From positions 1-14,078 of the forward strand of contig JACQVL010000334.1 in the NCBI GenBank assembly GCA_016209865.1: a DNA stretch of 14,078 bases, written 5' to 3'. Position 1 is the first letter of the stretch; each line of letters begins with the position of its first letter. Source of the stretch: Candidatus Latescibacterota bacterium (GTDB lineage: Bacteria > JAAXHH01 > JACQVL01). Positions 1,740 through 12,442 of the stretch are shown here, piece after piece. The translations under genes and the position numbers were made by a program. The notes beneath the pieces were generated by a model. It was not told the origin of the DNA. It did no database searches and saw only the letters and a program-made list of their open reading frames with translations.

Positions 1740-1749
1740 GGTTAAGAAA

Positions 1750-1754
1750 TCCTT
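1750..1754 (-). promoter_or_regulatory. Ribosome binding site selecting the carB TTG start
   Basis: AAGGA on the minus strand, 10 bases before the TTG. It supports the unusual start codon, because no other start is available in this frame between here and the repeat block. Confidence 0.5.
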
Positions 1755-1760
1755 AATAAG

Positions 1761-1886
1761 GTCGAAGGACGAAGTAAGGACGAAAGCAGAAGGTCGAAAG
1801 AAACCTGAAAAGGCTTCCCTGTTCGTACGCTGACGTTCTCCTTCATCTCTCTTTGTTTTTTCGTCCTTCGTCCTTCATCCTTGCTT
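1761..1886. repeat. Palindrome of AAGGACG heptamers between the DUF4159 gene and carB
   Basis: On the minus strand, directly after the DUF4159 stop codon, heptamers related to AAGGACG run in tandem (plus strand 1859-1886). About 75 bases later the inverted arm appears (plus strand 1761-1800, including AAGGACGAAG at 1765-1774 and AAGGACGAAA at 1776-1785). These two pieces match the reverse complements at 1866-1875 and 1859-1868 exactly, so a long imperfect hairpin or two alternative registers can form. The middle, 1801-1858, shows no gene. It could end the upstream transcript or protect its 3' end; that is inference. Confidence 0.7.
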
Positions 1887-1887
1887 T

Positions 1888-2637
1888 TTAGTGCGTCATC
1901 GCATACACCGCGATGTTGATCCCCAGTTTATACGCCGCGACCGCATACTCTCTCGGATAGATGGGGTTGGCCGCGTTCTCCCATCCATCGCTGATATCCG
2001 TGTTCCAATTGACCATCACGATCACCCGTCCCCGGTCATCCGACAGCCCGTAACAGAGCGGTTCTCCCGGATAGAAAATCGTGCCGAACGGGGTCCCGGC
2101 TGGAATCTTTTGATACTCGTCGATGTCGTAAAAGCTGTGGAAGAGCGGATGGTCGGTTCTCAGCGGCTGGAGCGTCTTCGTGGGAAACACTTTCTTCAGT
2201 TCTCCGGCGAAATGACGTAACCCCTCCTCCCCACGGGCATCATCGACTAAGAGAAACCCCCCGCGAGTCAAGTATTCTCGGAGTCCGTCCACTTCCTCCG
2301 GGGTGAAGACCACGTCCTGCACCTCGCACAGGTAGGCGAACACATACTCGTTCAGCCGCGAGTCCGTCAGCTCGACGATCCCGCCATCCACCGCCCGGTC
2401 GATATCCCGCACGACGTCGATCGTCGTGTGTTCCTGGAGCTGCCGGAGGAGGTTCGCCTCGTTGACCGGATAGTCGTGGTTCCAGGCGTCCGGTCCCGTG
2501 AACCACCCGCCGCCTTGCGTCCACCGGATGCGGGCGATGGCGATGCGGTTGGACTCGGCCGCCGGCCCGGTGCTGGCCACCGTCACCGTCGAGAGCAGCA
2601 CGGTGAGACCCAGGACGAGGGACATGCGTCGGAACAT
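1888..2637 (-). CDS. Exported DUF4159 family protein
   Basis: A 249-residue protein of the DUF4159 family, whose biochemical role is unknown to me. It opens with a basic n-region and hydrophobic stretch (residues 1-23), then SNRIAIARIRW, consistent with a Sec signal peptide cut near AAES, so the protein is probably periplasmic. Family hallmarks are visible: YLTRGGFLLVDDA (122-134), DHPLFHSFYDI (162-172), NWNTDISDGWE (210-220) and the end GINIAVYAMTH (239-249). The fold resembles a glutamine-amidotransferase-like Rossmann domain in related proteins; no catalytic triad can be asserted here. The ATG is 9 bases after the stop of the TPR protease gene and an AGAGG overlaps that junction, so the two are probably translated together. 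The operon context suggests a shared envelope job with the TPR protein. Confidence 0.88.
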   Translation of the reverse strand: MFRRMSLVLGLTVLLSTVTVASTGPAAESNRIAIARIRWTQGGGWFTGPDAWNHDYPVNEANLLRQLQEHTTIDVVRDIDRAVDGGIVELTDSRLNEYVFAYLCEVQDVVFTPEEVDGLREYLTRGGFLLVDDARGEEGLRHFAGELKKVFPTKTLQPLRTDHPLFHSFYDIDEYQKIPAGTPFGTIFYPGEPLCYGLSDDRGRVIVMVNWNTDISDGWENAANPIYPREYAVAAYKLGINIAVYAMTH

Positions 2638-2646
2638 CAGAACCTC

Positions 2647-5268
2647 TCACTCCACCGCGCTCAACAAAATTCGCTGCGCCGCTTCGTAGTTGGGCGCGAT
2701 CTCTAAGGCGTGCAGGGCTTCACGTTTCGCGTCCGCTTTCAGGCCGGCCAACAGGTAGGCGCGGGCCAGGTTGCAGTACGCCTCCGCCCGGTCGGTCGTC
2801 TCGATCCCTAACGCCGCTTTGTACTCGGTGATGGCCAGGCCGAACAGCTTTTTCGCCTCGTACGCCGCCCCCAGCCCGTTCCGGACGTCCGGGTCGAACG
2901 GGTTGATCATCACCGCGCGCGAGAGGACACGAATGACATCGGCATCCCGGTTGCGCTCTGCGTACCGCCGGGCAAGCTCCTTGTTCGCATCCAGGTTATC
3001 CTCATCGATGGCGGCCAGGGCTTCTAACTCACGGATGACGGCCGCGTCGTCTCCCCGCTTTCGGTAGACGGTCGCCAGCAGCCGGTACGGGTTCTCCCCG
3101 TGCACGTACTTCGGCATCAGGACGCGCGCCCGCGTTAGATGCTGGATCGCCTCGTCCTCGTCCCCGCGCGAAAGGAGGAGTTGCCCCAGCAGCAGATGGG
3201 CGTGAAAACTGCCCGGACTACGCTCGATCTCCTCCCGCAAATCCGACTCCGACAGTTCTTTTCGACCCTTTGGCGAGAACTGGAGCGCCGCCCGGTCCGA
3301 CGCGGTCCGTTGTTTCGCGTACGCTAAGAACCCCTCGTCGAACGCCTGGAGCGAGACGTTCAGCACAGCGCGCACCACCTCCTCGGTCGTCCGATCCTCC
3401 CCGTACAGCCGGAGCATCTTCAGGAGGGCGTCGAACCCGTGCTGCTGGACGATGTACTCGACGACGATCGACGCCTGGTAGTACGAGAGGACGACCTGAT
3501 CCATCGTCTTCGGACGGGTGAACCCGCTGTTGAGGTCGCTCACCTTCAGGAGCTGGTTGCGCTCGACGGCAGTAGCGAACTCCGGGGCGAGGTCGAGGTC
3601 CCACTCCGGCCGCGCCCGCCGCGCCTCGTACACCGCGATCCCCTCGGCCAGCCACCGGGGGACCCGGTTACGGGTGAGCTGCAGGTGGAGGGCGTGGGCA
3701 AACTCGTGCCAGAGGGTCTGTCCCCAGTTAAACATCCCGCCCTGACGCGCCCGTGGGGAGTTGGCGACGATGACCTCGCCGAAGCACACCCCCAACAGCG
3801 CGCCCGCCCCAGTCAGCCCGGAGATGCGCACCGCGAAGTCCTTATGCTGCGGGAAGAGTTCGACGAGGATGGGCATCCTCGGCTCGAACTCGTACCGGGG
3901 GGAGACCGTCCGGTACGCCTCTTCGAGCAGGTCGATCGCCAGCGACCCGTAGACCGGGTCTTCATCCTTGTGCATCTTGAGGATGAAATGCTGGCTCTGA
4001 CGAGTGGCGTAGTCTTTGAACGAGTCGAACAGGTTCAGGGTGTTGAGCGTCCAGATGTTGAACGAATCGTGCTCGAACGCTTGGTCGAGGTACTGCCGTC
4101 CCTCCTCCTCCTGGCCGACGCGGGAGAGGTTGATCCCTACATTCGCGTATGCCGTCCACAACTCAGGGTCGAGCTGGATGGCTTTCTTGTCCATCTCGAT
4201 GGCCTCGTGGAACCGGTACCGGCGGGCTAAATTTTCCGCGATCGTGGCGTACAGCTCCCCGTAGGAGGGGTTGACTGCGAGCACACGCTGGCACTCGGCC
4301 TGGAACCCCGCCTCGTCCCGCATCCCCTGATAACACGCGGCGAGCAGCGACCGCGTCATCGGAGACGACGGGTTCACTTCTAAGGCCTGCTTCAACTGAG
4401 CGACCGCCGCGGCGTACTGCTCATCGATCAGGTACAGGCGGGCCAACAGGCGGCGCGCCTCGACCAGCTTCGGGTTGATGGTGAGCGCCTTCTGGCAGCC
4501 CGCTTCCGCCTGCGATCCCCGGTCTTCCATCTGGCATTCCGCCAGGCCGACTAAGGCAGCCGGGGACGACGGGTTGATCTTGAGCGCATCCTGGAACACC
4601 CCGGCCGCATCACGCCGGTTGTATTTCGTGAGGAAGAGATACCCCCAGGCGACGTACGCCTCGATGTGCCTGGGGTCGAGTTGCGTCGCCTCGGCGAACA
4701 GATCATTCGCGTCATGGAACATCCCTAAATGCTGGGCCGCCACCGCGACCGCCGCGACCCCGTCCCCATCCCGCGCTCCGCCCGTCCGGTAGAGTTGAAC
4801 GAGGTCCTCGAACATCCGCCGGGCGTCCGCCTTGCGGCCGGTCTCTTCGTACATCAGGCCGAGGTCAAGCCGCGCGCGCGGCCGGGCACCGGGGGACGAC
4901 AACGCCCGTTGCAGCGACGCCCCTGCTTCGGCGTACCGGCCGCGGAGGGCCAGGAGTTCGCCGACCGTCCGGTGCGCGTCCGCCGACGCAGGGTCGATCT
5001 CGACCGCCTTCCGCGCCTGGACGTCCGCGTCGTCGTACCGGCCGGTCGTCCGGTACGTCCGGCTCAGGCCGAGGTACGCCTCAACCTGGCGCGGCTGGAG
5101 ACGGATCGCCTCCTGGTACTGCTGGATCGCCTGGTCGTACTGGCCGGACGTCTCAGCATCCTGCGCGGCCGTCAGGGGATCGCTCGACCGCTGGCCGTGC
5201 GCGCTGCAGTTCCACCCGGCCGTAACGAGGAGGATCAGGATGATGATGGACGGATGACGCTGTACCAT
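2647..5268 (-). CDS. Secreted TPR protein with an inserted gluzincin-like (peptidase MA type) domain
   Basis: An 873-residue protein. A signal sequence (1-25) is followed by TPR repeats from about 31 to 400 (repeated A..Y..A...P units), a zinc-protease-like domain at about 420-655, then more TPRs at about 690-870. The protease motif is HEFAH (H521, E522, H525), with E542 in WLAEGIAVYE placed as the expected third zinc ligand, as in the peptidase MA-like gluzincins. Cys21 does not sit in a good lipobox (GWN before it), so I favour a cleaved secreted or periplasmic protein over a lipoprotein. The start ATG has AGAGG 6 bases upstream. The stop is 9 bases before the DUF4159 start, and comEC ends 42 bases upstream. 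The TPR-protease-TPR arrangement suggests a scaffold that presents the protease to partners. The substrate is unknown. Confidence 0.9.
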   Translation of the reverse strand: MVQRHPSIIILILLVTAGWNCSAHGQRSSDPLTAAQDAETSGQYDQAIQQYQEAIRLQPRQVEAYLGLSRTYRTTGRYDDADVQARKAVEIDPASADAHRTVGELLALRGRYAEAGASLQRALSSPGARPRARLDLGLMYEETGRKADARRMFEDLVQLYRTGGARDGDGVAAVAVAAQHLGMFHDANDLFAEATQLDPRHIEAYVAWGYLFLTKYNRRDAAGVFQDALKINPSSPAALVGLAECQMEDRGSQAEAGCQKALTINPKLVEARRLLARLYLIDEQYAAAVAQLKQALEVNPSSPMTRSLLAACYQGMRDEAGFQAECQRVLAVNPSYGELYATIAENLARRYRFHEAIEMDKKAIQLDPELWTAYANVGINLSRVGQEEEGRQYLDQAFEHDSFNIWTLNTLNLFDSFKDYATRQSQHFILKMHKDEDPVYGSLAIDLLEEAYRTVSPRYEFEPRMPILVELFPQHKDFAVRISGLTGAGALLGVCFGEVIVANSPRARQGGMFNWGQTLWHEFAHALHLQLTRNRVPRWLAEGIAVYEARRARPEWDLDLAPEFATAVERNQLLKVSDLNSGFTRPKTMDQVVLSYYQASIVVEYIVQQHGFDALLKMLRLYGEDRTTEEVVRAVLNVSLQAFDEGFLAYAKQRTASDRAALQFSPKGRKELSESDLREEIERSPGSFHAHLLLGQLLLSRGDEDEAIQHLTRARVLMPKYVHGENPYRLLATVYRKRGDDAAVIRELEALAAIDEDNLDANKELARRYAERNRDADVIRVLSRAVMINPFDPDVRNGLGAAYEAKKLFGLAITEYKAALGIETTDRAEAYCNLARAYLLAGLKADAKREALHALEIAPNYEAAQRILLSAVE

Positions 5269-5310
5269 AAGAGACCTCTCTGGCTCGACCCTTCCATCAC
5301 GTCAAACTTT

Positions 5311-7779
5311 TCAATATAGATTCTCCCGGAAGCCTGTCAAGAGAATACTCCCCAGCGCCTGAGACGGCGTCAGGAGCGGGCGTTCCCGGCCGCGACGGAT
5401 CGTCGGTTCGAGGCGAAACGACCGCCCGTCCGTCCGCAACACGACCGCCCCGGCCTCATCCGTCCGGTAGACCGCTGTGCCCAGCCGTCGGTACCGGTCG
5501 ATCACCTGCGGGTCGGGATGGCCGAACCGGTTCCACGCGCCGACGGAGATGACCGCCGCACGCGGCCGGACCGCCTCCACCCAGGTCAGCCCGCTGGAGG
5601 TGCTGCTCCCGTGATGGGGGACTTTGACGACCGTGCTGCGGAGTGGGACGTCCTGCTCGATCAACCCGGCCTCTGCCGGGTCCTCGACGTCGCCCGTCAA
5701 CAGCACGCTGATCGCCCGGTAGTCGAGCCGGAGGACGACCGACGCGTTGTTCAGCCCGTACGGCGGGTCGCCCGTCGAGCCGGTGAAGTCGGACGACGGG
5801 TGGAGGATCACGCCCCGGACGTCCCCCATCCCCCTGAGACTGTCCCCGGCGGCGGTCGTCCGGTACCGCACCCGCCGGGCTTTGATCGCATCGAGCCAGT
5901 GTCGAAACGCCGGCGTCTCCGGGGCGATCCCGCTGTCGATCACCTCATCCACCCCTACCCCCTCCAGCACCGCCGGGAGCCCGCCTAAGTGGTCGTTGTG
6001 CGGGTGCGTCAACAGCACCGCGTTGACGCGGCGGCTCCCCATGAACCGCAGGAACGGCAGGACGACCCGTTCCCCGGCGTCGAACTCCGGCTCCCGGTTC
6101 CCCCCGTCGACGAGCAGGACGTACCCGTTCGGACACTCCACGACGACCGCGTCCCCCTGACCGACGTCGAGGAACGTCACGACGAGGTCGCGCGGTCTCA
6201 GGAACATCTCCCATCCCAGTCCGGCCAGCCCGACGACCAGGAGCGCGACCAGCCCGCGCCGGCCGACGGGAGAGCGGGGCGGATGGATGATCAGCAGGAG
6301 AGTCAGGTAGTACCCCGCCATCACCGCCAGGGGCGGCCTGGACACGATGAGCGACGCCGACGGGATCGAGGCGCCCACCGCCGCAACGTGCATCATGCCC
6401 TGGAGCGCCAGCCAGTTGGCCGCGCTGAACAGCCGGGCGACCTCGACGCTGATCAGCCCGGACAGGACGGTCGCGCTCCCAAGCGCGGTGGCGATGAGGA
6501 CGAGCGGGGCGACGAACAGGTTGGCCGCCGGGGCGATCAACGACACCTTAGAGAACGCCCACGCGATCAGCGGCAGTGTCCCGACCTGAGCGGCGGACGA
6601 GACGACCAGCCCCTCGATCAGCCAGCGCTTCCACCAGGTATTCGCCCGTCGGAGCCCGGCGGGCAGCCGCTCCCGCATCCACGGGTAGACGACGATCAAG
6701 GATAGGGTGGCGGCGAAGGAGAGCTGAAAACTCAGGTCGAACACCGCCTGCGGCCAGAGGATGAGGATCAGGAGGGCGGCGACCGACAGGACGTTGAGCG
6801 GGTCCGTCTGCCGGTCGATCAGGTTGGCGATCAAGAACAGCCCCGCCATGATCGACGCCCGGACGACCGACGGGGTGAGGTTCGTGATGAAGGCGTACAG
6901 GATGATGACGACCAGCGTCCCGACCGTGGCCGGCGTCCGTGGAAGCCGCAACAGTCCCAGCACCGTCATGGCGATGATGGCGATCAGCCCGACGTTGAAC
7001 CCTGAGACCGCCAAGAGGTGGGTCAGTCCCGTGTCCGAGAACGCCGACAGGATGTCCTCGGGGAGCGCCTGTTTTTCCCCTAACAGGACGCCTTTCAGGA
7101 GCGCGGCAGACGGGCCGCGGAGGGTGGCGTCGATCGTCCGCTCGGCCGCCTGCTTCATCGGACGGATGAGGAAGGTGTGGAACGTCGGGGCCGTCCGGCG
7201 GGACAGGATCGTCAGGCGCGCCGGGTCTCTGACGCTCATCAGGCCCGCGATCCCGTGCTGCTCGTAGAAGGCGCGGGCATCGAACCCACCGGGGTTCCGG
7301 GCCGGGTCGGGACGCCTGAGCCGGCCGGTGACGCGCACCCGGTCGCCGTACGCGCATGAGGTCCGAGGCGCTCCGAGCCGGACGAGCAACCGCCCGGTGA
7401 GCCGCACCGGATGCCCGCCGATCACGGCCTGCGAGGCCTCGACCGTCACCAGCGTGTACCGCTCGCGGCAGTCCGGGTCGGCCGCGACCGTTCCGGCGAT
7501 GGTGATCGGCTCCGGGAGGTCGCAGACCCGGCTGAGATGATGGCGTGACGCGACCCCGGTCCGGACGGTATACCAGAACGCGCTCGCGCTCAGGAGGCTC
7601 AGGCAGGCGCAGAGGGCGATCACCCGTGGCAGTGTGGGATGGCGACGCCCCAGCCAGACGGCCAGCGTCCCGGAGAGCAGGCCTCCTGCAAGGAGAGGGA
7701 ACAGCGGAAGCGTGAGATAGTGGTCGGCCAGCAGACCGCAGAGGAAGACGAGCACCACAGTCAGGGCCGGACGGCGCAT
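5311..7779 (-). CDS. comEC: DNA internalization/competence protein ComEC/Rec2
   Basis: ComEC forms the inner-membrane channel that brings single-stranded DNA into the cytoplasm during transformation. The 822 residues show the full architecture: N-terminal membrane helices (4-75), an OB-like soluble region (90-190), and the Competence domain with GVLLGEKQALP (230-240) and HLLAVSGFNVGL (254-265). A multi-helix core follows to about 530. A C-terminal metallo-beta-lactamase domain begins at DVGQGDA (538-544), with THPHNDHLGG (591-600, metal-binding H592, H594, D596, H597), TGDVED (695-700) and VPHHGSS (720-726). The metal motif is intact, so the nuclease-like domain should be active, although many ComEC homologues lack it. 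No strong Shine-Dalgarno precedes the ATG. No comEA, comF or pilus genes are in the window. It stands 206 bases after the ABC ATPase. Confidence 0.95.
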   Translation of the reverse strand: MRRPALTVVLVFLCGLLADHYLTLPLFPLLAGGLLSGTLAVWLGRRHPTLPRVIALCACLSLLSASAFWYTVRTGVASRHHLSRVCDLPEPITIAGTVAADPDCRERYTLVTVEASQAVIGGHPVRLTGRLLVRLGAPRTSCAYGDRVRVTGRLRRPDPARNPGGFDARAFYEQHGIAGLMSVRDPARLTILSRRTAPTFHTFLIRPMKQAAERTIDATLRGPSAALLKGVLLGEKQALPEDILSAFSDTGLTHLLAVSGFNVGLIAIIAMTVLGLLRLPRTPATVGTLVVIILYAFITNLTPSVVRASIMAGLFLIANLIDRQTDPLNVLSVAALLILILWPQAVFDLSFQLSFAATLSLIVVYPWMRERLPAGLRRANTWWKRWLIEGLVVSSAAQVGTLPLIAWAFSKVSLIAPAANLFVAPLVLIATALGSATVLSGLISVEVARLFSAANWLALQGMMHVAAVGASIPSASLIVSRPPLAVMAGYYLTLLLIIHPPRSPVGRRGLVALLVVGLAGLGWEMFLRPRDLVVTFLDVGQGDAVVVECPNGYVLLVDGGNREPEFDAGERVVLPFLRFMGSRRVNAVLLTHPHNDHLGGLPAVLEGVGVDEVIDSGIAPETPAFRHWLDAIKARRVRYRTTAAGDSLRGMGDVRGVILHPSSDFTGSTGDPPYGLNNASVVLRLDYRAISVLLTGDVEDPAEAGLIEQDVPLRSTVVKVPHHGSSTSSGLTWVEAVRPRAAVISVGAWNRFGHPDPQVIDRYRRLGTAVYRTDEAGAVVLRTDGRSFRLEPTIRRGRERPLLTPSQALGSILLTGFRENLY

Positions 7780-7898
7780 GCCGGCACACCCAGATGGCGA
7801 GATGTTGGAAAAGAAGGGGCAACGTTCGTTTTCTCTGGATTAGTCGGAGGGAGAAGAAAAATCTCGGAGGGAGGGAAGCAGGGGCGAAAAGAAGACCA

Positions 7899-7983
7899 GG
7901 GGTCAGGAATCAGGGGTCAGGGGTCGGTACCTGCTTTTTGTCTTTTTCCGAACCCCCAATCCCGAATCCCGAACCCCGAGTCC
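7899..7983. repeat. Heptamer repeat palindrome between the ABC ATPase gene and comEC
   Basis: Four heptamers at 7899-7926 (GGGGTCA, GGAATCA, GGGGTCA, GGGGTCG) face five at 7948-7982 (CCGAACC, CCCAATC, CCGAATC, CCGAACC, CCGAGTC) across a 21-base T-rich centre. The arms are only imperfectly complementary. On the minus strand the block begins 2-3 bases after the ABC ATPase stop codon. The rest of this 206-base gap (7780-7898) is purine-rich and shows no gene or clear promoter. Confidence 0.7.
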
Positions 7984-7985
7984 TC

Positions 7986-8696
7986 TCATGCTTGCTTGCG
8001 CGGCGCGTCCGACTCGACCTGCCCGTCTTTCAGCCGGACAATCCGGCGGCTGTGTTCGGCGATGTTCTCTTCATGCGTGACCAGAATGATCGTATGACCA
8101 CTCTGGTTAAGCTGATCAAACACGACCATGATTTCTTCGCCTGTTTTGCTGTCGAGGTTCCCGGTCGGCTCGTCGGCAAGGATGATCGAGGGGTTGTTGA
8201 CGAGCGCCCGCGCGATCGCGACCCGCTGCCGCTGGCCGCCGGACAGTTCGTTCGGCCGATGGCGCATCCGGTCCTGCAGGCCGACCGCTTTCAGCGCCGC
8301 GATCGCCAGTTGCCGTCGTTCTTTTCCCGGTATCCCCCGGTAGATCAACGGGAGCTCGACGTTGTGGAGGGCATCCGCACGCGGCAACAGGTTGAACGTC
8401 TGGAAGACGAACCCGATCTCCCGGTTGCGAATCCGGGCGAGGTCGTCGTCGGAGAGCTGACTCACGACCTCGCCGTTCAACTCGTATACCCCGCTCGTCG
8501 GCGTATCCAGGCATCCGATGATGTTCATCAGCGTCGATTTGCCCGACCCGGATGGCCCCATGATGGCCACGTACTCGCCCCGCGTGATCTCGATCGATAC
8601 CCCGCGTAACGCCCTGACCTCTTCCGCCCCCATCTGGTAGACTTTTTCCAGGTCTGTGACGTGGATGAGCGAACGGTCGTGACCGTTGTCAGCCAT
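7986..8696 (-). CDS. ABC transporter ATP-binding protein, LolD/MacB-like
   Basis: A 236-residue complete ATPase: Walker [10 protein letters not shown] (47-55), Q-loop Q99 in VFQTFNLLP, signature LSGGQRQR (151-158), Walker [13 protein letters not shown] (171-182) and H-loop H208. GCLDTPTSG and [10 protein letters not shown] are typical of the LolD/MacB/FtsE-like branch, which works with FtsX-type permeases in lipoprotein extraction, macrolide or peptide efflux, or membrane remodelling. No permease or HlyD-type adaptor lies next to it: the upstream gene is the small MshEN protein and the downstream gene is comEC. The partner must be elsewhere or outside this operon, so the substrate cannot be named. 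Start ATG is preceded by GAGGAAGG a few bases upstream. Confidence 0.95.
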
Positions 8697-8840
8697 TGGC
8701 CTTCCTCTGTCCGTCAGAAAACGAACTCACCCCGTGAAGCATCAATCCTTCCAGGTTTCTCAGCGCTATCAGTAAGTATGACTGTTAAATGGGCAGAAAG
8801 GTTTCATGGGGAAGATGAGAGGAGGATGCACGCACGGAGT

Positions 8841-8874
8841 TTTCTCATCACTCGTCACTGGTCACTCGTCACTG
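8841..8874 (-). repeat. GTGACGA heptamer repeat, copy 1, after the MshEN gene
   Basis: Read on the minus strand, this carries GTGACGA, GTGACCA, GTGACGA and GTGATGA in tandem. It matches copy 2 (9830-9863) at 33 of 34 bases in inverted orientation. It starts 14 bases after the stop codon of the small MshEN gene, in that gene's sense direction. The 144 bases between it and the ABC ATPase start show no gene. Confidence 0.8.
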
Positions 8875-8887
8875 ATGTTCCCGCCTC

Positions 8888-9073
8888 TCACGCCATCTCA
8901 TCCATCTGAATCTTGACGACTTCATCGATATGCACCCGGGTGATCAGTCCCAACCGCATAGCCGCCTGACCGAGCCGTTCAACCCCTTTCTTCTGCGCCT
9001 TGAGCGCCTGGTCGAGTTGTTCCTCCGTGATGAATCCTTCATCCACCATGATCTCTCCGATTCGTCTGCGCAT
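8888..9073 (-). CDS. Free-standing MshEN-type (c-di-GMP-binding-like) domain protein, 61 aa
   Basis: A 61-residue protein that is nearly all one MshEN/GspE-N-like domain. Two 24-residue motifs are visible: residues 4-27 (RIG, MV, GFI, L20, L24, Q27) and 33-56 (RLG, AM, GLI, I49, V53, Q56), joined by a 5-residue linker KKGVE. The 24-5-24 spacing and the RLG...G-hydrophobic-hydrophobic...L...L..Q pattern are those of the c-di-GMP-binding MshEN domain known at the N-terminus of type II secretion and type IV pilus ATPases. Motif I fits well; motif II is looser (Ile and Val at the Leu positions). No ATPase follows. A reading frame continues upstream, but the start at 9073 is favoured: the family similarity starts there and a very strong AAGGAGG lies just before it. 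It is divergent from nuo and upstream of the ABC ATPase gene. Ligand binding is inferred, not shown. Confidence 0.82.
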   Translation of the reverse strand: MRRRIGEIMVDEGFITEEQLDQALKAQKKGVERLGQAAMRLGLITRVHIDEVVKIQMDEMA

Positions 9074-9080
9074 TTCGTGA

Positions 9081-9092
9081 CTCCCCCTCCTT
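9081..9092 (-). promoter_or_regulatory. Strong ribosome binding site fixing the MshEN start
   Basis: AAGGAGGGGGAG on the minus strand, ending 7 bases before the ATG at 9073. It is among the strongest Shine-Dalgarno sequences in the window. It argues for the short 61-residue product rather than a 153-residue extension that would cross the promoter region. Confidence 0.75.
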
Positions 9093-9152
9093 GATGACCA
9101 TCTTTCGGTCAGAGCCTGTCGTGCAGCCAGCCACTCTCCATACCAGACCACC

Positions 9153-9181
9153 AATCTAACGCAGCCCATCACATTTCGCAA
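9153..9181 (-). promoter_or_regulatory. Candidate promoter for the MshEN gene
   Basis: On the minus strand TTGCGA (9181-9176), a 17-base spacer, then TAGATT (9158-9153). Each hexamer matches 4 of 6 consensus bases. The start of transcription would be near 9146, giving a leader of about 73 bases. It lies back to back with the nuo promoter, 14 bases between the two -35 boxes. Confidence 0.4.
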
Positions 9182-9195
9182 GACCCTTTTTTTTA

Positions 9196-9224
9196 TTGAC
9201 AATACCCGGCTTCTCCCATAAGAT
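9196..9224 (+). promoter_or_regulatory. Sigma-70-type promoter of the nuoABCD operon
   Basis: TTGACA (9196-9201), a 17-base spacer and TAAGAT (9219-9224). The -35 box is perfect and the -10 box matches 4 of 6. It follows a T tract (9187-9194). Transcription would begin near 9231, leaving a leader of about 150 bases before nuoA. Confidence 0.7.
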
Positions 9225-9256
9225 GTGTCGGAAGTTTTTAAGGGGAGAGAAAAAGC

Positions 9257-9388
9257 TTGCGGCTGATTCAGACGTTTGTATATTTGTACGGCTGTGTCGT
9301 CCGGGGAAGACCCGACTGGCTTCTGGATGAACCGGCTGAATTGACCCATCCAGAGGGGACCGTGTTGAGAGGGGTCGTGGGATGCTGA
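9257..9388 (+). CDS. Possible 43-residue leader ORF overlapping the nuoA start
   Basis: Starting at TTG (9257), 43 codons run to a TGA at 9386-9388 that overlaps the nuoA ATG by 7 bases (ATGCTGA). AAGGGGAGAG (9240-9249) sits 7 bases before the TTG, a good Shine-Dalgarno more than 130 bases from nuoA, which otherwise has only a weak one (AGAGGGG). The predicted peptide (MRLIQTFVYLYG...) resembles nothing I recognise, and codon use is less GC-rich than in the neighbours. It could be a translationally coupled leader or a chance frame. Only the location and the ribosome site favour it. Confidence 0.22.
   Translation: MRLIQTFVYLYGCVVRGRPDWLLDEPAELTHPEGTVLRGVVGC
9320..9356 (+). promoter_or_regulatory. 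Stem-loop in the nuo leader
   Basis: TCTGGATG (9322-9329) pairs perfectly with CATCCAGA (9347-9354). Two more pairs, one of them G-T, extend the stem to 10, with a 17-base loop. It ends 25 bases before the nuoA ATG and could affect ribosome access or mRNA stability. No protein-binding or riboswitch class is recognisable. Confidence 0.45.
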
Positions 9389-9849
9389 CCGATTACATCA
9401 GTGTGCTGGTGTTCACCGTCGTGGCCGTCGCGTTCGTCGCCATCAACCTGTTTCTGAGCCGGCTGCTCCGGCCGCGCAACCCTTACCCGGAGAAACTCAC
9501 CTCGTACGAGTGTGGGGAAGACCCGGAAGGCCAGTCCTGGATTCAGTTTAACATCCGGTTCTACGTGGTCGCGCTCATCTTCCTGATCTTCGAAGTGGAA
9601 ATCGCTTTCCTCTACCCCTGGGGCGTGGTGATGAAGCAGCTCGGCCTGGCGGCGTACCTCGAAATGGCCGTCTTCATTCTCATCTTGGGGGCCGGGTTCG
9701 TGTACGTGTGGAAGAAAGGCGATCTGGAGTGGGTGAAGGAGTCGGACGTGATCGCCGTCTTAGAGCGCCGGCAGGCTGAGGAAGAAGCCCAGCGAGCACG
9801 ACGGACGAGTCCGCGCGACCTGCCCGAAGCAGTGACGAGTGACCAGTGA
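9382..9849 (+). CDS. nuoA: NADH-quinone oxidoreductase subunit A
   Basis: NuoA is a small membrane subunit of complex I; its loop contacts NuoB and NuoD at the quinone site. The 155 residues contain three membrane helices (about 7-28, 59-79 and 92-110), the conserved loop with SYECGEDP (41-48), and [11 protein letters not shown] (70-80). The C-terminal tail of about 45 residues is charged and longer than in many NuoA proteins. Its last residues and stop codon are encoded inside a GTGACGA repeat (copy 2), so the tail end may be derived from the repeat. ATG at 9382 is preceded by AGAGGGG at 7 bases. First gene of the four-gene nuo operon, behind the promoter at 9196. Confidence 0.96.
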
Positions 9850-9863
9850 CGAGTGACGAGAAA
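9830..9863 (+). repeat. GTGACGA heptamer repeat, copy 2, at the nuoA stop
   Basis: GTGACGA (9832-9838), GTGACCA (9839-9845), GTGACGA (9846-9852) and GTGACGA (9853-9859). The nuoA TGA at 9847-9849 lies within the third unit. It shares a 24-base identical core with copy 3 (9831-9854 = 10924-10947) and 33 of 34 bases with inverted copy 1. No inverted arm lies between it and nuoB. Confidence 0.85.
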
Positions 9864-9875
9864 GACCGGAGATTC

Positions 9876-9880
9876 GGAGG
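9876..9880 (+). promoter_or_regulatory. Ribosome binding site selecting the nuoB start
   Basis: GGAGG lies 7 bases before the ATG at 9888, but only 1 base before the ATG at 9882 and downstream of the GTG at 9846. This makes 9888 the likely start. Confidence 0.7.
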
Positions 9881-9887
9881 CATGAGG

Positions 9888-10421
9888 ATGGCCGAGATCG
9901 TTGGTCAGGACCTGGATGTTATAGATAAAGAACTCGAAGGCAATATCGTCTTCACCACCCTCGATAAGGCGGTCAACTGGGCGCGACTGTCGGCCATCTG
10001 GCCGATGACGTTCGGTCTGGCCTGCTGCGCGATCGAGATGATGGCCACCGGGGCCTCCCGGTACGACCTCGACCGCTTAGGGGTGATGTTTCGTCCCAGC
10101 CCTCGCCAGTCCGACCTGATGATCGTCGCCGGGACGGTGACGATCAAGATGGCCTCCCGCGTGAAGCGGCTATACGATCAGATGCCCGACCCCAAGTGGG
10201 TCATCTCGATGGGCAGTTGCGCGACGAGCGGCGGGCCATACTGGCAGTACGGGTACCACGTCCTGAAAGGGGTAGATCGAGTCATCCCGGTCGACGTGTA
10301 CGTCCCCGGCTGCCCGCCACGGCCCGAGGCGCTCATCGAGGGGATTCTCACCCTCCAGCGGAAGATTCGGACACAACGGAAGACGTTGCGCATCTTTCAC
10401 CTGTTCGACAGGGATCAATGA
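9888..10421 (+). CDS. nuoB: NADH-quinone oxidoreductase subunit B
   Basis: NuoB carries the terminal 4Fe-4S cluster N2, which hands electrons to quinone. In 177 residues all four expected ligands are present: the tandem C46-C47 in [11 protein letters not shown]111 in MGSCATSGG, and C142 in [11 protein letters not shown]. Also visible are SRYDLDRLG (57-65), [18 protein letters not shown] (68-85) and the PKWVISMG strand (102-109). Length is normal for the family. The start at 9888 is chosen from the GGAGG spacing; longer starts would translate the repeat. It lies 38 bases after nuoA and 1 base before nuoC, so translation with nuoC is probably coupled. Confidence 0.97.
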
Positions 10422-10422
10422 T

Positions 10423-10914
10423 ATGGACGCGTCCGCCATCTACGACACGCTCAAAGCCCGGTTCGGGGACGACATCCTGGGGTTCAACGGCGAGGGGATC
10501 GATCCCTCCATCACCGTGGCTCCGGCCGCGCTCGACCGGGTCGCCTCGTTTCTGAGCGATGAGCCGGCCTTCGCCTTCGATGCGCTGATGTGCCTGAGCG
10601 GGGTCGATCATGGGTCTGGCAAAGACCTCGGCGTCGTCTACCACCTCCACTCGATGACCCACCGCCATACGATCACGCTGAAAGTGGACGTCCCGCGCGA
10701 CGCCCCGCACGTGCCGACCGTCGAACACGTCTGGAAGACGGCCGACTGGCACGAGCGGGAAGCCTACGACATGGTCGGGATCATCTTCGACGGCCACAGC
10801 GACCTGCGCCGGATCCTCTGCCCGGACGACTGGGAAGGTCATCCGTTGCGGAAGGATTATCACACGCAGGAATACTACACGATCGGTGGAAAGCCGGTGA
10901 GGGTGCCAGTCTAA
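10423..10914 (+). CDS. nuoC: NADH-quinone oxidoreductase subunit C
   Basis: NuoC is the roughly 30-kDa-type connecting subunit of complex I and binds NuoD and NuoB on the cytoplasmic arm. The 163 residues hold the family signature in order: TADWHEREAYDMVGI (106-120), FDGHSDLRRILCPDDWEGHP (122-141) and LRKDY (142-146). It is a separate gene, not fused to nuoD as in E. coli. The ATG follows the nuoB stop by one base and the Shine-Dalgarno is weak, which fits re-initiation by ribosomes leaving nuoB. The stop is followed directly by GTGACGA repeat copy 3. Confidence 0.96.
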   Translation: MDASAIYDTLKARFGDDILGFNGEGIDPSITVAPAALDRVASFLSDEPAFAFDALMCLSGVDHGSGKDLGVVYHLHSMTHRHTITLKVDVPRDAPHVPTVEHVWKTADWHEREAYDMVGIIFDGHSDLRRILCPDDWEGHPLRKDYHTQEYYTIGGKPVRVPV

Positions 10915-10917
10915 TGA

Positions 10918-11006
10918 GTGACAAGTGACGAGTGACCAGTGACGAGTAAAACAATTCCTGCGGCAAGCTGTAATCTGAACCTACTCTTAACTCGTCACTC
11001 GTCACT
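10918..11006 (+). repeat. GTGACGA heptamer palindrome, copy 3, between nuoC and nuoD
   Basis: GTGACAA, GTGACGA, GTGACCA and GTGACGA run from 10918 to 10945, three bases after the nuoC stop. An inverted arm at 10991-11006 matches 10931-10946 at 15 of 16 bases across a 44-base loop. The right arm is followed by GCTTTT and then the nuoD ribosome site GAGGAG. A hairpin inside the operon at this point could reduce or tune nuoD expression; that is inference. Confidence 0.85.
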
Positions 11007-11023
11007 GCTTTTGAGGAGCCGTT

Positions 11024-12142
11024 ATGGCCGTTCAGACCGAAGAAATGGTCCTCAACATGGGCCCCCAGCATCCCAGCACGCACGGGGTGTTGCGCTTAGC
11101 GTTGCGGACCGACGGGGAGATCGTCACGCAGGTCACTCCCCACATCGGGTACCTCCATCGCTGCTTCGAGAAACACGCGGAGAACCTCCCGTACCAGCAG
11201 GTCATCCCGTTCACCGACCGGATGGACTATTTAGCGTCGATGAACAACAACTTAGGGTATGTGGTGACGGTCGAGAAACTGATGGGACTCGACATCCCGG
11301 AACGGGTGGAGTACATCCGGGTCCTGATGGCCGAGTTCAACCGGATCGCCAGTCACCTGATGGCGCTCGGCACGTACGGGATGGACATCGGCGCGTTCAC
11401 CCCGTTCCTGTTCGCCTTCCGCGACCGGGAGATGATCCTCGACCTGTTCGAGATGGCCTGCGGGGCACGGCTGCTGTACAACTACATCTGGGTCGGCGGC
11501 CTCTCCCACGATCTGCCGCCCGGCTGGACGGAGAAGGCGATCGAGTTCCTCGACCAGTTCGAGCCGCGGATCGAGCGGGAGTACAACCCGCTTCTTTCGT
11601 ACAACAAAATTTTTATTGAACGCACCGCAAAGGTGGGAATTCTGCCGCCGGAGACGGCCATCTCGTATGGGGTGACCGGGCCGAACCTGCGCGGGTCGGG
11701 GGTGAAATGGGACCTGCGCCGGGATGAGCCGTATTCGATCTACGACCGGTTCGAGTTCGAGGTCCCGGTCGGGCACGGCGAGTTCGGGCCGCTCGGCAGT
11801 TCCTGGGATCGGTACTACGTGCGTATCCTGGAGATGGCGGAATGTGTGAAAATCCTGCGTCAGGCGCTCGCCCAACTCCCGCCCGGCGACGTGAAAGCGG
11901 CCATTCCCAAGAACGTCAAGCCGCCGGTGGGTGACTGTTACGTGCGGACGGAGAACCCACGCGGGGAGCTGGGTTTCTACCTGATCAGCGACGGGTCGCC
12001 CAAGCCGTACCGCCTGAAGGTGCGGTCGCCGTGTTTCACCGCCATCAGCGCGCTGGATATCATGTCGCGAGGGGGCATGATCGCCGACCTGATCGCCATC
12101 GTGGGCAGCCTCGACATCGTGTTGGGAGAGATCGACCGGTAG
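11024..12142 (+). CDS. nuoD: NADH-quinone oxidoreductase subunit D
   Basis: NuoD is the 49-kDa-type subunit of complex I and forms the quinone pocket with NuoB. The 372 residues are the size of stand-alone NuoD. Motifs: NMGPQHPSTHGVLRL (11-25), HIGYLHRCFEKHAENLPYQQ (40-59), PFTDRMDYLASMNNNLGY (62-79), GVTGPNLRGSGVKWDLR (216-232), RLKVRSPCF (330-338) and the end IVLGEIDR (365-372). Cysteines at 47 and 337 stand where many homologues have small residues, but they are not the nickel ligands of related hydrogenases. GAGGAG precedes the ATG by about 6 bases. A short AT-rich stretch inside the gene (11598-11630) does not break the frame. It is the last nuo gene here; nuoE onward must be elsewhere. 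Confidence 0.97.
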   Translation: MAVQTEEMVLNMGPQHPSTHGVLRLALRTDGEIVTQVTPHIGYLHRCFEKHAENLPYQQVIPFTDRMDYLASMNNNLGYVVTVEKLMGLDIPERVEYIRVLMAEFNRIASHLMALGTYGMDIGAFTPFLFAFRDREMILDLFEMACGARLLYNYIWVGGLSHDLPPGWTEKAIEFLDQFEPRIEREYNPLLSYNKIFIERTAKVGILPPETAISYGVTGPNLRGSGVKWDLRRDEPYSIYDRFEFEVPVGHGEFGPLGSSWDRYYVRILEMAECVKILRQALAQLPPGDVKAAIPKNVKPPVGDCYVRTENPRGELGFYLISDGSPKPYRLKVRSPCFTAISALDIMSRGGMIADLIAIVGSLDIVLGEIDR

Positions 12143-12152
12143 GATCGCTGGC

Positions 12153-12240
12153 AACCACGAAGATCACGAAGACCACGAAGTAAAAACTGTCGTGAACCTC
12201 TTCGTGTGCTTCGTGTCCTTCGTGGTTCGTTTAAATTTTT
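12153..12240 (+). terminator. Long nonamer hairpin with T tract after nuoD
   Basis: Left arm 12153-12180 is built of ACCACGAAG, ATCACGAAG and ACCACGAAG. The right arm 12200-12227 is its inverse with 24 of 28 bases matching, the outer 10 perfectly, around a 19-base loop. TTTAAATTTTT follows at 12230-12240. It begins 10 bases after the nuoD stop. It could act as an intrinsic terminator or 3' stabiliser for the nuo mRNA, and it is also a member of the repeat-unit palindromes of this window. Confidence 0.6.
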
Positions 12241-12303
12241 AGGTTCATCCGACATTTTTACGGATCACGCTGATGAGAGTTTGATGATCAAAACAGGTCA
12301 TCC

Positions 12304-12442
12304 GTAGGGGCGATCCTTGTGATCGCCCGCATCGGGGCGAATACCAGATTCGCCCCGACAGGTTTTTACCGATTTGGGTCGTCAAATCTCATGAGGGGCG
12401 ACCCGGTGAGTCGCCCAGGGCGAGGCACCGCCTCGTCTCTAC
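12304..12442. repeat. MITE-like block of four GC-rich hairpins
   Basis: Stem-loops in series: GGGCGATC/GATCGCCC (12308-12328, 8 bp, loop 5); TCGGGGCGAAT/ATTCGCCCCGA (12332-12358, 11 bp, loop 5); GGGCGAC/GTCGCCC (12396-12416, 7 bp, loop 7); CGAGGC/GCCTCG (12421-12435, 6 bp, loop 3). The block begins GTAGGGGCG and ends CGTCTCTAC, which are inverse at 7 of 9 bases. No target-site duplication is clear and there is no ORF, so mobility is only suggested. Confidence 0.6.

Follow-up and report, generated by a model that had tools for sequence, protein, structure and literature searches.

Paired heptamer arms behind gene ends in a Candidatus Latescibacterota genome and in other phyla point to an under-described class of dispersed element

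Tandem-unit arms at six gene junctions

The DNA analyzed here is a stretch of 14,078 nucleotides (the window), contig JACQVL010000334.1 (C300) of a 3.75 Mb, 83% complete draft assembly of a Candidatus Latescibacterota bacterium (GCA_016209865.1), and the elements in question are short arrays of tandem units, or arms, that lie at the ends of its genes. Pfam backs the gene names CarB, DUF4159, TPR/peptidase, ComEC, ABC ATPase, NuoA, NuoB, NuoC, and NuoD, while the small gene earlier named for MshEN has no convincing Pfam match. An earlier note on this DNA had described six junctions with tandem units of changing type, four of them with a facing inverted arm. We used Tandem Repeats Finder (TRF) for tandem arrays, an inverted-repeat search for arms, and a list of open reading frames (ORFs) for stop codons, and recovered all six junctions and all four facing arms, with one pair (7897-7983) made of two different words. 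TRF gave period-7 arrays at 1860-1882, 7897-7925, 7948-7983, 8844-8873, 9831-9860, 10916-10947, and 10990-11006, and 9-base arrays at 12154-12180 and 12200-12224, respectively. The inverted-repeat search gave arm pairs at 1758-1793/1840-1875, 10924-10948/10982-11006, and 12153-12180/12200-12227. The arms are as follows.

1758..1801, plus strand: degenerate AAGGACG-type arm, outer side toward the carB start, partner of the 1860..1882 arm (inverted repeat I1)
1860..1882, minus strand: AAGGACG-type arm of 3 units (class D), 5 nt past the TAA of the DUF4159 gene; TRF period 7
7897..7925, plus strand: GGGGTCA-type arm (class E), partner on the comEC side in a facing pair of two classes; TRF
7948..7983, minus strand: GGGGTTC/GGGATTC-type arm (class F), 2 nt past the ABC ATPase stop; TRF
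8844..8873, minus strand: single AGTGACG arm of about 4 units, 13-14 nt past the stop of the MshEN gene; TRF
9831..9860, plus strand: single AGTGACG arm, AGTGACG-AGTGACC-AGTGACG-AGTGACG-AG, which starts inside the nuoA ORF and provides its stop, TGA 9847-9849
10916..10947, plus strand: AGTGACG arm of 4 units, 2 nt past the nuoC stop; TRF, inverted repeats I3-I5
10985..11006, minus strand: AGTGACG partner facing the previous arm, upstream of nuoD, with GCTTTT after it on the plus strand; inverted repeat
12153..12180, plus strand: ACCACGAAG arm of three 9-base units, 11 nt past the nuoD stop and followed by TAAAAA; TRF, inverted repeat I2
12200..12227, minus strand: facing ACCACGAAG arm; inverted repeat I2

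The arrays therefore begin anywhere from inside an ORF to 14 nt past a stop codon, in agreement with the earlier placement at the stop or within about 15 bases of it. At the nuoA junction (window 9846-9881), the earliest possible start of nuoB, GTG 9846, lies inside the repeat array, and an ATG downstream is the likely start. On the minus strand, the arm at 1860..1882 reads TAAAAAGC, then AAGGATGAAGGACGAAGGACGAA, then AAAAC, with boundaries that agree with the genome-wide class D consensus.

The four paired junctions are predicted to fold at -35 to -50 kcal/mol, with z from -2.5 to -7: -45.2 kcal/mol (z -2.5) for the arm at 1758..1801 and its partner, -50.3 kcal/mol (z -4.4) for the arms at 7897-7925 and 7948-7983 despite their different units (GGGGTCA and GGGGTTC), -34.8 kcal/mol (z -4.5) for the nuoC-nuoD pair, and -38.7 kcal/mol (z -7.0) for the ACCACGAAG pair. 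The two single arms fold no better than shuffled sequences, neither 8844..8873 (z +0.9) nor 9831..9860 having a stable self-fold. Rfam covariance models gave no match in the window.

About ten unit families share one anatomy

We sampled 726 kb of the same genome, about one fifth of the draft assembly, with the first 20 stretches drawn mostly from contigs with AGTGACG matches and 40 later ones taken by contig number. A simple hexamer model of our own called 629 genes in this sample, with uncertain gene starts. TRF found 148 period-7 arrays in the 67 kb of intergenic DNA and none in ten Markov-3 versions of it, and across the whole 3.75 Mb assembly GTGACGAGTGACGA is present 239 times and its reversed control not once. 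The arrays are thus far beyond chance, which sets aside the low-complexity drift that the earlier note had named as a possible refutation. About ten unit families are present in the sample: AGTGACG (84), GGTGGTC (29), AAGGACG (29), ATTTTGG (23), GGGGTTC (15), GGGGTCA (9), and, in smaller numbers, GATGAAC (7), GATTGCG (5), and GGGCAAT (5). A few families have words of 8 or 9 bases at a similar total length, and the 8-base arms (e.g. AACGTTYG and CCTTTGTG) end the idea that unit length must be odd. The proposal that this is not one mobile family holds in that the families are many, but each unit type behaves as a dispersed family within the genome.

Array length has two peaks, 23-25 and 30-32 nt, or 3 or 4 units plus 2-3 bases, and the arm has the form (XY)nX, as in AG-TGACG-AG-TGACC-AG-TGACG-AG-TGACG-AG. 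Among class A (AGTGACG) arrays, 43 of 82 have four units. The ends are phase-locked, with class A arms preceded by aaagC, running from AGTGACG to a final AG, and followed by taaaa; A-runs likewise flank both ends of the arm in classes D, B, F, E, and G, but no A/T runs border the arms of the ATTTTGG family. Within the arm, the outer units are nearly invariant and the inner ones vary in set ways. In class A copies of three units, the middle unit is AGTGACA in 19 of 32 and the outer units are AGTGACG in 27 of 32 and 26 of 32 (p ~7e-5), and base 7 is G in 77 of 86 outer units compared with 44 of 86 inner units. Single consensus arms fold at just -0.2 to -7.4 kcal/mol.

The preference for four units recalls the G-quadruplex explanation offered for repeats in Xanthomonas and Nostoc, in which four units are present because four G-tracts are needed. 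Those published repeats share the placement and the facing pairs seen here (PMC4692102), and the GGGGTTC and GGGGTCA families do have G-runs. They are the only families that do, however, and four-unit modes are also found in AGTGACG, AAGGACG, and ATTTTGG, which contain no GGG. Because most families lack G-runs, quadruplex formation does not account for the four-unit preference; it is contradicted as a general explanation, and we give it hardly any credence.

Arms face each other and hug stop codons

Same-family neighbors within 250 nt of each other are facing in 33 cases and pointing apart in none, and both arms belong to one family in 33 of 41 facing pairs, where 22% would be expected. Arms point away from the upstream gene. 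Behind a gene 3′ end, the median arm starts 3 nt away, with 92 of 112 arms within 15 nt and 104 of 112 within 50 nt. Where a junction leaves at least 60 nt of room, uniform placement would put 6.5 of 44 blocks within 15 nt of the stop; the observed number is 29. For junctions of at least 40 nt, the share with arms is 41% between tandem genes, 44% between convergent ones, and 17% between divergent ones. Arms also occur upstream of start codons and in frame inside genes, so that the description of a gene 3′-end feature stands for the strongly stop-proximal placement but does not cover the in-frame copies in some genes here and in guaA and bioA of other bacteria. The in-frame arms within long genes of this genome (L033 16726-16792, L067 1715-1745 and 3561-3590, L032 6388-6419) encode heptad peptides such as DCGLRIA and GSGVRGQ. 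The loops between facing arms often hold another dispersed palindrome, GTCATTCCCGCG..AAGCGGGAATCC, which is dRS3-like, has 21 copies in the sample, and appears as if nested (e.g. L041 2567-2672, L053 1927-1976, L056 near 8320, L082 2305-2357).

Arms of the same design in other phyla

An exact pattern for the four-unit AGTGAC arm was run over 84,980 genomes, and the phyla among the matches listed include Acidobacteria, Nitrospirota, Chloroflexi, Cyanobacteria, Bacteroidota, Verrucomicrobia, Omnitrophota, and Proteobacteria, among others. In two Pyrinomonadaceae (Acidobacteria) genomes, 64 of 80 and 77 of 92 copies have four units, the arms face each other 75 times and point apart once, and the flanks (aaaac before the arm and AGttaaaa at its end) are nearly identical to those in the window's genome. 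In the second of these genomes, all 8 roomy junctions have the block within 15 nt of the stop, compared with 1.2 expected. The earlier proposal that sequence varies while architecture is kept thus extends across the genome and across phyla, with an arm of ~24-31 nt, a facing partner, and proximity to the stop codon. Around AGTGAC loci of other lineages, other heptamer families are plentiful and mostly different in each lineage, at densities biased by the choice of these loci for their AGTGAC arms. Exact sharing of units across phyla is, in sum, above that of letter-shuffled units, and most families are lineage-specific.

In the two Acidobacteria, class A arms occupy 69 of 328 tandem junctions but only 2 of 62 convergent ones (p = 0.0003). 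This distribution bears on the possibility that the arms are bidirectional intrinsic transcription terminators, for which the outer flanks AAAAGC ... GCTTTT, the inner flanks TAAAA ... TTTTA, and the hairpins predicted after stop codons would be suitable. A U-run flank is indeed present, but the loops are mostly 20-150 nt, which exceeds the length for efficient intrinsic termination. Arms are also found inside operons, and one pair sits between nuoC and nuoD, which normally share one operon. With the ATTTTGG family lacking flanking A/T runs and the convergent junctions of the two Acidobacteria nearly devoid of class A arms, we consider a terminator function very unlikely.

Relatives of the same order are mostly without arms, with 0-2 per 100 kb in three genomes and 5 and 13 per 100 kb, in other units, in two more. 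Their best NuoD is just 46-48% identical to the window's, and no arrays are present at those nuo loci. The window's genome has a second NuoD gene elsewhere (G000:C237:3686-4855), 46% identical to the window's, and the window's nuo set may therefore differ in origin from that of its same-order relatives. Only 44 of 2.9 million viral contigs contain the four-unit AGTGAC arm, which makes viruses no obvious carriers.

Whole arms turn over at fixed sites

In ~28 kb of orthologous DNA from the two Acidobacteria (~95% identity), class A arms persist with the same unit number and differ by substitutions, with one copy decayed, while the ACAACTG family has gained and lost units. Composites recur at separate loci: one Acidobacterium has a composite of 154 nt whose copies are 86% identical, and the window's genome has one of 121 nt at 85-88%. 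A nested composite of ~150 nt, with a CGTGAAT pair within an AGTGACG pair, is dispersed in Pyrinomonadaceae at 78-86% identity (L116 7464-7610, L207 1260-1414, L171 1458-1605).

Two genes of Nitrospirota that hold arms in frame supply the strongest evidence on arm evolution. In bioA (L149, L167, L214, L283-L331), the site lies between the HST and VFYSDNG motifs, and many species have only a short, empty form there, such as APKGLS. Several species share a perfect in-frame ACTCGTCACTCGTCACTCGTCACTCGTCACT at this site between flanks that are just 67-72% identical, a perfect 31-nt AGTGACG arm being present in four species with diverged flanks. Elsewhere the same codon is occupied by other words or by GC palindromes, making it an insertion hot spot. 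In guaA (L363-L392), about one third of 30 loci have two facing in-frame arms before VVWMSH, and other species are empty at this codon. The left words are AAGATGC, AAGTCAG, GCGGTCA, GCAGTCA, AAAGGGC, AAGAGTT, and AGAAGAC; the right words are AGTGACG, AGTTTTG, and GTGACGG; and in some Nitrospirota the codon holds GC palindromes instead. We counted three of these words as patterns across ten genomes. AAGATGC is present only in the genome that has it in guaA, AGAAGAC only in the two genomes that have it there (its reversed-pattern control is not independent, the reversed unit being its own rotation), and GCRGTCA reaches its highest counts in the three genomes that have it in guaA. The guaA codon is therefore filled from the dispersed families of each host genome, an outcome that local slippage cannot readily give. 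Rickettsia palindromic elements are also short repeats inserted in frame in essential genes, but they are palindromes of ~100-150 nt, unlike these heptad arrays.

GC-rich, palindrome-like stretches also lie in the window at 12300-12430, between nuoD and an FGE-sulfatase-like gene (GGGGCGATCC...GATCGCCC, CGGGGCGAATACCAGATTCGCCCCG, GGGGCGACCCGGTGAGTCGCCC), and palindromes like them occupy the bioA site in some Nitrospirota (L292).

These observations can be set against the view that the arrays are ordinary long simple sequence repeats (SSRs), arising independently at each gene end through slippage that favors a 7-base register and tolerated there. The register preference is a proposal of Mrazek et al, 2007, as cited in later work, and heptamers are described as the commonest long SSR class in many genomes (as cited in PMC4679880, PMC4692102). 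An (XY)nX array with microhomology at both ends is the expected product of slippage between short direct repeats, and the ACAACTG family does change its unit number between the two Acidobacteria. Slippage does not predict, however, an end phase and flanks common to dozens of loci and across phyla, position-specific inner variants, a fixed 3-4 units with length peaks at 23-25 and 30-32 nt, class A unit numbers kept between species, facing ratios of 33:0 and 75:1, or family-specific filling of the guaA codon. We consider it quite improbable as the whole explanation. The phase-locked ends and the filling of guaA instead argue that whole arms are copied, with local slippage alone insufficient.

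Relation to described repeats

Parts of this pattern have been described. In Xanthomonas and Nostoc, GGGNATC and GGGGA(C/T)T heptamers show a four-unit preference and facing pairs near stop codons, and a quadruplex was proposed (Rehm et al, 2015; PMC4692102). They resemble the arms here in being heptamers, preferring four units, occurring on the sense strand no farther than 50 nt from the stop, and forming facing pairs. That study dealt with one unit type per genome, whereas here about ten coexist, most without G-runs, with 8- and 9-base versions and with replacement of one family by another at orthologous sites. For Geobacter metallireducens, the portion of the report relevant here describes an element of four heptanucleotides in tandem, present 49 times within genes as well as between them, and other classes in which arrays of 3-5 short tandem units are paired across opposite strands with varying spacing (PMC2700814). 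The units differ from ours (GGGACCG, MTYCTGA, TCTCCGTSY) and are read there as regulator-binding or regulatory RNA sites, with no cross-family rule stated in that portion. TAACTGA repeats of Beggiatoaceae, Cyanobacteria, and Bacteroidetes are dispersed heptamer arrays of 2-6 copies with suspected horizontal spread; unlike the arms here, they lie mostly directly upstream of start codons as direct repeats with almost no inverted partner (PMC4679880).

Repetitive extragenic palindromic (REP) sequences and their hairpin-forming doublets (REPINs) are short and dispersed downstream of genes, in several families per genome and with some copies in genes, and their opposite-orientation doublets form hairpins (PMC3116915, PMC3733652). 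Placement and doublets are alike here, where the hairpins are predicted. A single REP is a 20-40 nt palindrome with a GTAG or CGTC tag, the GTAG type being tied to REP-associated tyrosine transposases (RAYTs), whereas a single arm here is a non-palindromic tandem array. Heptamer repeats are thus known in pieces, from Xanthomonas and Nostoc, Geobacter, and Beggiatoaceae, and we found no unifying account in the open-licence literature; the earlier statement that no name exists is true of the class as a whole, but not of these parts.

A REPIN-like reading and its weight

The most likely explanation is that the arms are REPIN-like, non-palindromic elements of multiple families that form intercistronic RNA hairpins. 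The element would be an arm of ~24 or 31 nt with the form (XY)nX, built from a 7-base (sometimes 8- or 9-base) word in usually 3-4 units, and would mostly be laid down as two same-family arms, face to face. Whole arms would be copied within a genome, while their identity would turn over between species. Between a stop codon and the next start they appear to be tolerated and are probably used, with the arm pair transcribed and folded into a long imperfect stem-loop. Such a stem-loop may act as REP sequences and bacterial interspersed mosaic elements do, as a boundary or brake on 3′-5′ RNA decay that tunes intercistronic expression, rather than as a classical terminator. As a whole, dispersed elements of many families and one architecture, copied as whole arms and used between genes as RNA stem-loops, strike us as about evenly balanced between right and wrong: architecture, placement, orientation, family identity within a genome, and persistence between species are observed, and the RNA-level function and the copying mechanism are what we infer.

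Several observations weigh against it. Facing pairs of two families exist in the window's genome and in guaA. In two of the three genomes compared, the window's and that of one Acidobacterium, partner arms match no better than random same-family arms, and in the remaining Acidobacterium the gain is slight; a search for compensatory pairing between partner arms mostly found none, and base pairing is therefore not tightly maintained. The near-absence of class A arms at convergent junctions in the two Acidobacteria is not what a general 3′-end role predicts, and in-frame arms inside genes cannot be 3′-end hairpins. No empty site that would speak for active movement was seen between the two close Acidobacteria. 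Finally, a search for RAYTs (Y1_Tnp, PF01797) gave no match in the 83% complete assembly of the window's genome, although controls were found in five genomes; reverse transcriptase (PF00078) was likewise without a match in this assembly.

The weak complementarity of partner arms, set beside their strict unit number and orientation, would suit a nucleoid or regulatory protein that reads heptad-spaced words in DNA or RNA and binds them as tandem sites, with opposite-strand pairs dimerizing. In the relevant part of the Geobacter metallireducens report, 4x GGGACCG elements are described along with paired opposite-strand 3x TCTCCGTS(Y) and 5x MTYCTGA sites annotated as putative global regulator sites (PMC2700814). 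Against this, some ten families in one genome would require many proteins or one that is blind to sequence, divergent promoter regions are avoided (17%, compared with 41% of tandem junctions), and the in-frame guaA and bioA copies have unrelated words. Protein binding as the general explanation looks unlikely to us.

The REPIN-like reading may have a broader form, possible but doubtful in our view, in which the arms would be a pan-bacterial element class. A copying system would spread ~30 nt arms of a short word repeated 3-4 times. The words, a set of its own in each lineage, would be overwritten at fixed sites such as guaA and bioA without any change in length, orientation, or pairing. Selection would then act on the architecture, with the word as exchangeable cargo.

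Paired heptamer arms follow hundreds of genes, both here and in other phyla, and point to an under-described class of element and not to random drift. Earlier work on heptamer repeats has treated single unit types separately and explained each differently, as a quadruplex, a regulator site, or slippage. Several families in one genome that follow the same rules of length, phase, orientation, and placement, and that are swapped at one codon of essential-type genes, suggest that architecture is kept rather than sequence. Annotation is affected as well, since arms end or extend reading frames (nuoA is a case in the window) and give proteins additional heptad peptides, SSLVTRH among them. The question of why there are seven bases and four units becomes testable, with guaA and bioA as natural experiments on element movement.

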